Below, in pieces: positions 58,116-60,804 of a DNA stretch of 64,000 nucleotides (positions are counted from its first letter, which is position 1; each line of letters begins with the position of its first letter). The stretch lies in contig CACHHD010000001.1 in assembly GCA_902579605.1 (NCBI GenBank), positions 124,001-188,000 of the forward strand, given 5' to 3'. Below the pieces are notes generated by a model. The model was not told the origin of the DNA, searched no databases, and saw only the letters and a list, made by a program, of their open reading frames with translations. The position numbers and the translations under genes were made by a program. Source of the stretch: an uncultured Pelagibacteraceae bacterium. GTDB taxonomy: Bacteria; Pseudomonadota; Alphaproteobacteria; Pelagibacterales; Pelagibacteraceae.

Positions 58116-58787
58116 ATGCCGAGAAAGAAAAAAGTAAAAAAAAGTAAAAAAATTAAAAAGAAAACTAAAGTCATATCAAAAAAAGTCAAAAAAACGAATG
58201 TTGAAGTTGCACCAAAAAAAACAGTAGCTACAAATCAGGATGACAAGCCAGAGATTAAAAAAGTAAAAAAACAAGCCACAGAGAAACGACAATATAATAT
58301 TAAAGATTTTGTAGTTTATCCTAAGCATGGAGTTGGAAAAATTACTGCCATTGAAAAAGCTAATATAGGTCAAATTGAAATTCAATTTTATAAAATTTAT
58401 ATTGAAAAAGAAAAATTAACCTTAACTGTACCAATTAATCAACAATCAAACCTGAGACCGATTTCTTCTATAAATCAAATAAATAAATGTGTATCTATTT
58501 TAAAAACTAAGCCAAAAATTAAAAGAACTATGTGGAGTAGAAGAGCTCAAGAGTACGATCAAAAGATTAACTCGGGTAAGATATACGAATTAGCTGAAGT
58601 AGTTAAAGATTTGAATAAAAATACTGATATAATTGCAGATCAATCTTATTCGGAAAGACAGTTGTTTGAGAAAGCTTATGATAGACTAAGATCAGAATTT
58701 GAGGCGGTGTTAAAAACTGGTCCTGAAGAAGTTCAAAAAAAGATGGACAAAGCTCTTGGTAGAAATAAAAATCCGTTAGAAACTTAA
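58116..58787 (+). CDS. carD: CarD-family transcription regulator with Lys-rich N-terminal tail
   Basis: This 223-aa protein has a long basic N-terminal tail: 15 of its first 26 residues are lysine, and the disordered tail ends near residue 58. The RNA polymerase-interacting Tudor-like domain follows (from about residue 63, YNIKDFVVYPKHGVGKITAIE), and then the helical DNA-binding domain. CarD binds the polymerase beta subunit and stabilises open complexes at rRNA and other promoters. The tail looks like a histone tail, absent from short CarD proteins such as those of mycobacteria. A strong terminator follows. Confidence 0.92.
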   Translation: MPRKKKVKKSKKIKKKTKVISKKVKKTNVEVAPKKTVATNQDDKPEIKKVKKQATEKRQYNIKDFVVYPKHGVGKITAIEKANIGQIEIQFYKIYIEKEKLTLTVPINQQSNLRPISSINQINKCVSILKTKPKIKRTMWSRRAQEYDQKINSGKIYELAEVVKDLNKNTDIIADQSYSERQLFEKAYDRLRSEFEAVLKTGPEEVQKKMDKALGRNKNPLET

Positions 58788-58792
58788 AATAA

Positions 58793-58827
58793 AAACGCCC
58801 TTTTTAAAAAAATCAAAAAGGGCGTTT
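58793..58827. terminator. Bidirectional intrinsic terminator between carD and the polybasic ORF
   Basis: A 13-bp perfect inverted repeat, AAACGCCCTTTTT (58793-58805) and AAAAAGGGCGTTT (58815-58827), with a 9-base loop. It ends carD on the + strand and the polybasic-peptide gene on the - strand. Confidence 0.9.
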
Positions 58828-58852: not shown

Positions 58853-58918
58853 CTATCTTCTTCTTCTTCTTCTTTTTTTAGCTTTTTTCTTTTTAGCTTT
58901 TTTTCTTCTTTTAGCCAT
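58853..58918 (-). CDS. 21-aa polybasic (Lys/Arg) peptide
   Basis: The ATG at 58916-58918 follows a GGGAGA ribosome-binding element by 5 bases, and TAG is at 58853-58855. The product begins MAKRRKKAKK and ends in six arginines: 17 of 21 residues are Lys or Arg and the rest Met and three Ala. It has its own TTGACA promoter region and a shared terminator, so it is an independent transcript. Such a peptide should bind RNA or DNA tightly; ribosome assembly, nucleoid or RNA polymerase partners are all possible. Too short for routine annotation. Confidence 0.6.
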   Translation of the reverse strand: MAKRRKKAKKKKAKKRRRRRR

Positions 58919-58991
58919 CTTATCTCCCTGTTTTATAAACAAATCATTATGATTCGTTTTGATATTTAATCTTTAAGTTTTTTTCCTTTGA

Positions 58992-58997
58992 TGTCAA
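58992..58997 (-). promoter_or_regulatory. Candidate -35 box for the polybasic-peptide gene
   Basis: A consensus TTGACA reads on the - strand at 58992-58997, about 75 bases upstream of the ATG, followed after 15-20 bases by AT-rich candidate -10 sequences (TTAAAG or GATTAA). A perfect palindrome AATCATTATGATT (58942-58954) between it and the start might be an operator. The rest of 58919-59121 is AT-rich with no ORF. Confidence 0.4.
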
Positions 58998-59121: not shown

Positions 59122-60804
59122 TTAATTATTATAAAGTTTTTCTAGTTGTTGTTTATAATTTTTAATTATTTCTTTTCTTTTTAATTTTAAAGTTGGTGTA
59201 AGCATTCCGTTTTCAATTGTAAATTCCTCATAAATTAAGACAAATTTTTTAATTTTTTCTATTAAAGTTAAATTTTTGTTTATATTTTCAATTATAAGTT
59301 TAATTTTTTCTTTACTAATTTCTTTTTCACTAACAATTAATGCAACTAAATAATTTTTTTTGTCTCCGTAAACAAAAGATTGTTTAATGTTTTCGCTCAA
59401 GCATAAAATATTTTCAATTTTGCTCGGAGAGATATTGTCGCCACCAAGATTTACAATAATGTCTTTTTTTCTATCAGTAATTTTTAAATAATTATTATTA
59501 TCTAATTCGCCTATATCTCCAGTATGAAGCCATCCATCTTTGATTGCTTTTTCAGTTTCCTCTTTTAAATTCCAATATCCCAACATAATATTTTCACCCT
59601 TAATAAGAATTTCTCCATCTTCAGCTATTTTGACTTTATTAGTTCTAAAAGGAGGACCTACCGAATCGACTTTGACTAAATCCGGTAAATTACAACTTAC
59701 AACTGGAGAGGCTTCGGTTAAGCCATATCCTTGAAGAGTGGGTAATCCAACAGCGTTTAAAAACTCTCCAACATTTTGATCCAAAGCTCCTCCCCCAGAT
59801 ACAAAGGCCTGCAGATTACCGCCAAACTGGTTTCTAATTTTTTTTCTCACTAAATTTTCACATAGAAAATTTGTGATTTTTTCTGTTAATTTCAGTTCCT
59901 CTTTTTTAAGTATTTTTTTTCCCAAATTTAACGTTTGATTTATAAGTTTTCTTTTTAATCCTGATTGTCTTTCAAAATTCATATTTATTTTTATAAAAAG
60001 GTTTTGATAAAATCTTGGAACTGCAGTCATAATTGTTGGCTTAGCCATTCCCATATTGGCAATTAGTTTCTCTAAACTTTCAGCATAAAAAACTTTTGCT
60101 CCAACTATAATTTGTATAAATTGAACTGTATGTTCATAAGAATGTGATAAAGGAAGCCAGGTCAAAAATACTGGATCTTTTTTTTTGGTTAAAGTTTCCA
60201 ATAATTCAATCGCACCTTCACAGTTAGATAAAATGCCTCCATGACTTAAAATTACTCCTTTAGGATTTCCCGATGTACCTGAAGTGTAAATGATGCAAGC
60301 AGGCATATTTCTTTTTAAATCCTTATTTGCTATTTTTTCACTAATTTCTTCTTCAAGAATTTCTTGAATTAATAAACTATCAGTATTTATTTGTTCAAAA
60401 GATATTATTTTTTTGACATCGCTACTAATAAATTTTTTAATCTTGTTAAATTGATCTTGATTTGAAACAAATATTAATGAAGGCTTACAATCATTTAAAA
60501 TATATTCATAATCATTTGCAGAATAAGTTGTAAAAATTGGAACTGAAATTCCTTCAGCATTCATTATGGCTATATCTGTCATTAACCAATATGGTCTATT
60601 CTCAGATAAAATTAAACATCTGTCACCTTTTTTTATAAATGATTTAATTTTTGCAGTAAGTTTAAAGATTATTTGAGTAGTTTCTTCCCAATTATGATTT
60701 TGTTCATTTGGTTTGAGCCATTTTAAAAATGGTCTTTTACCGTCAACCTCTTCTACTTTTTTAAAATAAAGTTCAACTAAGCTATTTAATTTACTTATAT
60801 CCAT
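59122..60804 (-). CDS. Long-chain acyl-CoA synthetase (AMP-binding)
   Basis: This 560-aa adenylate-forming enzyme has the AMP-binding motif YTSGTSGNPKGVILSHGG, the LQGYGLTEASPVVS substrate-loop block and the hinge DRKKDIIVNLGGDNISP. It activates fatty acids through acyl-AMP to acyl-CoA, using CoA and ATP, probably at the membrane. Its ATG lies 7 bases after the 3' end of tRNA-Leu, so the two share a transcript and the processed mRNA would be nearly leaderless. Confidence 0.9.
   Translation of the reverse strand: MDISKLNSLVELYFKKVEEVDGKRPFLKWLKPNEQNHNWEETTQIIFKLTAKIKSFIKKGDRCLILSENRPYWLMTDIAIMNAEGISVPIFTTYSANDYEYILNDCKPSLIFVSNQDQFNKIKKFISSDVKKIISFEQINTDSLLIQEILEEEISEKIANKDLKRNMPACIIYTSGTSGNPKGVILSHGGILSNCEGAIELLETLTKKKDPVFLTWLPLSHSYEHTVQFIQIIVGAKVFYAESLEKLIANMGMAKPTIMTAVPRFYQNLFIKINMNFERQSGLKRKLINQTLNLGKKILKKEELKLTEKITNFLCENLVRKKIRNQFGGNLQAFVSGGGALDQNVGEFLNAVGLPTLQGYGLTEASPVVSCNLPDLVKVDSVGPPFRTNKVKIAEDGEILIKGENIMLGYWNLKEETEKAIKDGWLHTGDIGELDNNNYLKITDRKKDIIVNLGGDNISPSKIENILCLSENIKQSFVYGDKKNYLVALIVSEKEISKEKIKLIIENINKNLTLIEKIKKFVLIYEEFTIENGMLTPTLKLKRKEIIKNYKQQLEKLYNN

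Follow-up and report, generated by a model that had tools for sequence, protein, structure and literature searches.

Introduction

The H1-like proteins Hc2 (HctB) of Chlamydia and BpH1 of Bordetella vary in length with the copy number of their repeats, and for Hc2 RNA binding and translational repression are described as well (PMC2848022). Hc2 comprises 165–237 aa and BpH1 182–206 aa. Tiny and very basic proteins also occur in ribosomes, where bTHX, bS22 and bL38 have a fixed length and a mixed sequence, and such ribosomal extras are typically all-basic and 25–35 aa long; HU is the standard nucleoid protein. Few cells on Earth are as numerous as those of SAR11, whose genomes are very compact. 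Nevertheless, all SAR11 lineages sampled here retain a gene below standard annotation length, which is fixed throughout the order Pelagibacterales (SAR11). Its product is, in our moderately confident view of its sequence, a tiny polycation that would bind nucleic acids without sequence specificity and act in the manner of the histone H1 C-terminal tail or of Hc2 and BpH1.

Like Hc2 and BpH1, the SAR11 forms are rich in Lys, Ala and Pro, have few or no acidic residues and vary in length by repeat number, with those of a sister family and of one genus of the window's own family (g12) being the closest in style; unlike Hc2 and BpH1, they comprise 20–99 aa (21 aa in the window) and have neither a Pfam match nor a common synteny nor the same pentamer spacing. 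With the C-terminal tail of eukaryotic histone H1 and with protamines the peptide shares the character of a Lys/Ala/Pro- or Arg-rich disordered polycation, but in contrast to histone H1 it is bacterial, far shorter and devoid of a globular domain, i.e. the likeness is one of composition only. Pfam and NCBIfam gave no relevant match for the 21, 58, 85 and 91 aa forms up to E=10, such models being weak on low-complexity peptides. Because a match to a curated model is lacking, the peptide is not filed under Hc1, Hc2 or BpH1 but only as working alike; judged by its sequence, it represents a new and extremely short type of H1-like protein, to which Hc2 and BpH1 are nearest.

The micro-gene falls outside all families of Pfam, NCBIfam and Rfam. 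Rfam yielded no family above the gathering score, and sub-threshold matches at a relaxed threshold lay mostly in the terminator region. A literature search that covered few subscription journals found no description of a histone-like or Lys-rich peptide in SAR11, and the locus is not among the motifs listed in a survey of structured RNAs in SAR11 (PMC2704228). A global small-ORF catalogue, which predicts ORFs from 30 nt, may contain the peptide, unnamed (PMC11364881). Trypsin would destroy such a peptide, which may be the reason for its absence from proteomics reports.

The micro-gene in the window

The window, i.e. the whole stretch of 64,000 nucleotides that was analysed, comes from a draft genome of 0.97 Mb that is 80% complete. 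A sequence-only reading had pointed to a 21-residue ORF with 17 Lys/Arg residues, a strong ribosome site, a TTGACA box and a shared terminator, all of which are indeed present:

58116–58787, plus strand: carD/cdnL (RNA polymerase-binding protein), convergent neighbour with a Lys-rich N-terminal tail, used as synteny anchor
58793–58827, no strand: terminator hairpin common to the micro-gene and convergent carD, 15 bp, G+C-rich, with T-tails; relatives have a hairpin at the same place
58853–58918, minus strand: ORF MAKRRKKAKKKKAKKRRRRRR, 21 aa (17 of them Lys/Arg), ATG at 58918 and TAG at 58855–58853; putative H1-tail-like micro-protein
58924–58928, minus strand: Shine–Dalgarno sequence GGGAG, with the ATG 5 nt further on; kept in relatives
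58937–58959, minus strand: predicted 5'-leader hairpin AAACGAATC-ATAAT-GATTTGTTT, core CGAATC-N5-GATTYG at 58940–58956, CGAATC at 58951–58956
58970–58975, minus strand: putative -10 element TAAAGA, of low confidence, placed by spacing and weak in consensus
58992–58997, minus strand: putative -35 box TTGACA, ~34 nt upstream of CGAATC (33–36 nt order-wide)

No other ORF in the 64-kb window reaches both 15 aa and 70% Lys plus Arg, and 60 simulated windows of the same dinucleotide frequencies contained no ORF of this kind, so this one is not a product of chance. Gene finders usually have a lower limit of 90 nt, and it is plausible that routine ones overlook an ORF of 66 nt. The same-strand upstream neighbour is an acyl-CoA synthetase-like gene (59122–60804); this order is kept in those loci of the window's family that were checked, and the neighbour was not found in the loci of the sister family.

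Occurrence across SAR11

The anchor gene carD was matched in 96 of the 118 genomes of the window's SAR11 family, and 50 loci were read from genera with such a match. In each of the 50, the strand opposite to carD bears a short all-basic ORF that begins or ends 54–186 nt past that gene, and loci read later agree. The micro-gene is present beside carD in every SAR11 genus sampled, and its pattern in Pelagibacterales is order-wide, single-copy and housekeeping. A comparison of relatives with respect to stops, frameshifts and loss of the start codon or ribosome site found that start, ribosome site, frame and composition persist throughout the order, with a single frameshifted copy, which is also the only one among the 50 loci (L044, genome G006). 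Here, an A-run (~764–826) has eight instead of seven residues as counted by eye, which puts the last part of the peptide out of frame; this expansion is either an assembly error or a real change. The ORF is intact at four other loci of the same clade (L040, L041, L071 and L072).

A pattern made of the ribosome site and the first codons, scanned over ~85,000 species, gave at least 120 matches; 118 of the matches listed belong to Pelagibacteraceae/Pelagibacterales, and 116 of these have CGAATC at most 110 nt upstream. The remaining two among those listed, from Bacillus and Acidobacteria, were rejected as unrelated proteins, as were all four viral pattern matches. At 27 carD loci outside the order, many of which have kept fdxA, no comparable Lys/Arg-rich ORF follows carD on the opposite strand. 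Class-wide, a search with the 85-aa protein of the sister family produced weak matches in two of 240 genomes (L073 was spurious), and the micro-ORF pattern matched once outside SAR11, at L232, where it marks the beginning of a longer protein whose N-terminus is penicillin-binding-like.

Selection on the peptide

In 103 distinct ORFs with 2570 codons, GAA and GAG do not occur at all, in contrast to 380 AAG and 607 AGA codons, i.e. codon positions 2 and 3 accept A-to-G changes, whereas position 1 does not. Differences between close pairs, which are not independent of each other, comprise 237 synonymous, 81 Lys/Arg and 38 small-residue changes and none of any other kind. Not a single residue in these ORFs is acidic and only three are hydrophobic, and the longer forms of the sister family are of the same low complexity, rich in Lys, Ala and Pro, apart from a short MEELKVIF-like stretch at the N-terminus. 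Arg is concentrated at both ends (37% and 68%) as against 1.3% in the Lys/Ala middle, which is conserved by composition and less so by exact sequence. To judge from its codons, the ORF is a real protein-coding gene under strong purifying selection on the protein.

That the unit acts as a small RNA or leader with an incidental ORF, for which its shortness, conserved 5' hairpin and terminator might speak, has a nearly negligible probability in view of this codon-level selection, the conserved start and ribosome site, length changes that are exclusively in frame except at L044, and the lack of any Rfam family above the gathering score. Hardly more probable is a secreted cationic antimicrobial peptide: the high positive charge would suit such a role, but a signal sequence is absent, as is an adjoining export or immunity gene, and the near-lack of hydrophobic residues as well as the single-copy housekeeping pattern argue against it.

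Long forms and the length series

In the sister family, the same locus encodes a Lys/Ala/Pro repeat protein of 76–99 residues (MEELKVIFAKARKKAKKKAAPKKKRKAAKRKPAKKK...) of the histone H1-tail type, with the same layout of TTGACA, CGAATCA and Shine–Dalgarno sequence as in the window's family. Lengths track a carD tree that has other Alphaproteobacteria as its outgroup and in which the deep branching order within the window's family is not well supported: 76–99 aa in the sister family, 31–58 aa in genera g5, g7, g9 and g12 of the window's family and 20–30 aa, or up to 35 aa, in the rest of it. The span of 20–99 aa across the order, as in H1-like proteins, reflects varying copy numbers of repeat units of the AKK/KAAPKKK type, with all changes in frame except at L044.

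Synteny and leader suggest that the forms of the two families are orthologous, a reading to be tempered by the fact that Lys-rich repeats can converge. The short form would then have arisen from the long one by loss of repeat units; since the outgroup has no gene this polarity is inferred, and the long form may instead have grown from the short one. At two g9 loci (L048 and L049) an upstream ATG in the same frame (MLQTLKGGTE-MAKRR...) overlaps a segment that putatively pairs with the Shine–Dalgarno sequence and may represent an alternative start.

Leader, promoter and the HU genes

CGAATC is found in all 136 distinct leaders analysed, and TTGACN lies 33–36 nt upstream of it in 134 of them, a fixed spacing which puts CGAATC at the predicted 5' end of the mRNA. 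A generic sigma-70 scan of the window did not have the micro-gene promoter among those listed; the promoter call is supported by the conservation of this gap. In most leaders of the window's family, CGAATC forms a stem with GATTYG, a conserved hairpin between promoter and ribosome site which the sequence-only reading had missed and which occurs once in the window's genome. All 79 leaders with a hairpin of this shape have G2 in a G–C or G–U pair, and C1 is unpaired in seven. In g5, g7, g9 and g12 the hairpin is displaced in the 3' direction (TCACTTAA..TTAAGTGA) with CGAATCA retained, and CGAATC is invariant even where the pairing has been lost. By these features the element may be an RNA hairpin or a DNA palindrome. 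The 5'-terminal stem is consistent with stabilization of the mRNA, by analogy to ompA, for which such stabilization is documented in references given in PMC3997798, or else with an operator. In longer-form lineages (L042, L043, L047–L050 and L053–L062), CTCC, CCTC or CCC stretches of the leader are able to base-pair with the ribosome site (GGAG/GGGG), possibly as a translation switch or for autoregulation.

The module TTGAY-N34..36-CGAATCR has 23 matches in 15 Pelagibacterales genomes: 15 at the micro-gene, i.e. in every genome, five directly before HU and three elsewhere; a reversed-pattern control in the same genomes gave 19 matches. HU genes with the module are found in both families (G118, G120, G005, G019 and G040), with TTGAY-N34-CGAATC in the upstream regions L274, L275, L298, L299 and L313 of the sister family and of g5 and g12. 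At ~1.3 random matches per genome, a match on the right strand within 100 bases before HU would be expected in about one genome per 20,000, for what is a post hoc observation. CGAATC is absent before HU in the window's genus, in g2, g3 and g4 and in most genera of the window's family, so co-regulation with HU may be ancestral only. Shared by HU and the H1-like gene, the module suggests an ancestral type of nucleoid-protein promoter or a regulon.

These findings also bear on a ribosome- or RNA-associated micro-protein of the kind of bTHX, bS22 and bL38, which would bind rRNA or mRNA rather than organize DNA. The peptide is equally tiny and very basic, its strong ribosome site and conserved leader hairpin resemble the leaders of translation genes, and Hc2 sets a precedent for RNA binding and translational repression (PMC2848022). 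In contrast to those ribosomal proteins, however, it varies between 20 and 99 aa with its repeat units instead of having a near-constant length and conserved rRNA-site residues, matches no ribosomal family model in Pfam or NCBIfam up to E=10 (a search of low power for a 21-aa query) and shares its promoter module with HU. We regard this alternative as rather unlikely, and the likeness to very short ribosomal proteins seen in the sequence-only reading has not found support; the likeness to a histone tail, also seen there, has gained strength from the H1-like form of 76–99 aa and from the module common to HU in several genomes.

A possible role in DNA packing

As a tail-only, H1-like polycation, the peptide, with ~17 positive charges and no acidic residue, would neutralize phosphates of DNA (or RNA) and could thereby act together with HU in compacting the small nucleoid of SAR11. 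A short, abundant message may be stabilized or regulated by the hairpin at its predicted 5' end, and the short form would result from repeat units being lost as the genome was streamlined. More tentatively, and at somewhat less than even probability, streamlining may have pared an H1-like nucleoid protein, originally on the promoter/5'-end module of HU, down to a bare tail of 20 residues that packs DNA in a protamine-like manner and is encoded by one of the shortest order-wide conserved genes of bacteria. Should the peptide prove to be a nucleoid protein, DNA packing in a minimal cell would include an H1-like component as well, and the graded lengths from 99 to 20 aa would provide a natural series on the minimum working length of a polycation.

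The CarD tail

The CarD protein of SAR11 itself has a basic N-terminal tail, with 25–44% Lys plus Arg over 50–120 aa (58116–58289 in the window, and relatives). In Myxococcus, an HMGA-like DNA-binding domain maximizes CarD activity (PMC4374960), and the reference list of that paper cites work according to which HMGA- and H1-like domains are functionally equivalent. Like this domain, the SAR11 peptide is a basic disordered segment tied to a CarD-type protein; unlike it, it is encoded by a separate gene, not fused, and has no AT-hooks, the RGRP/GRP core being absent from all peptides of both families that were compared. The CarD tail of SAR11 and the Myxococcus domain form a parallel, not evidence of interaction.

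The invariant place beside carD, the tail of its product and the Myxococcus precedent could speak for a peptide that neutralizes polyanions outside of nucleoid structure, i.e. polyphosphate or membrane lipids, or that is a partner of CarD and RNA polymerase. The two genes are convergent with separate promoters, however, conserved gene order says little by itself where genomes are compact, and CarD tails are also present at L079, L082 and L085, where no such peptide follows carD, which makes this role distinctly unlikely. Tails comparable to that of SAR11 CarD are seen in some other Alphaproteobacteria, with L078 and L097 as further cases beside these three.
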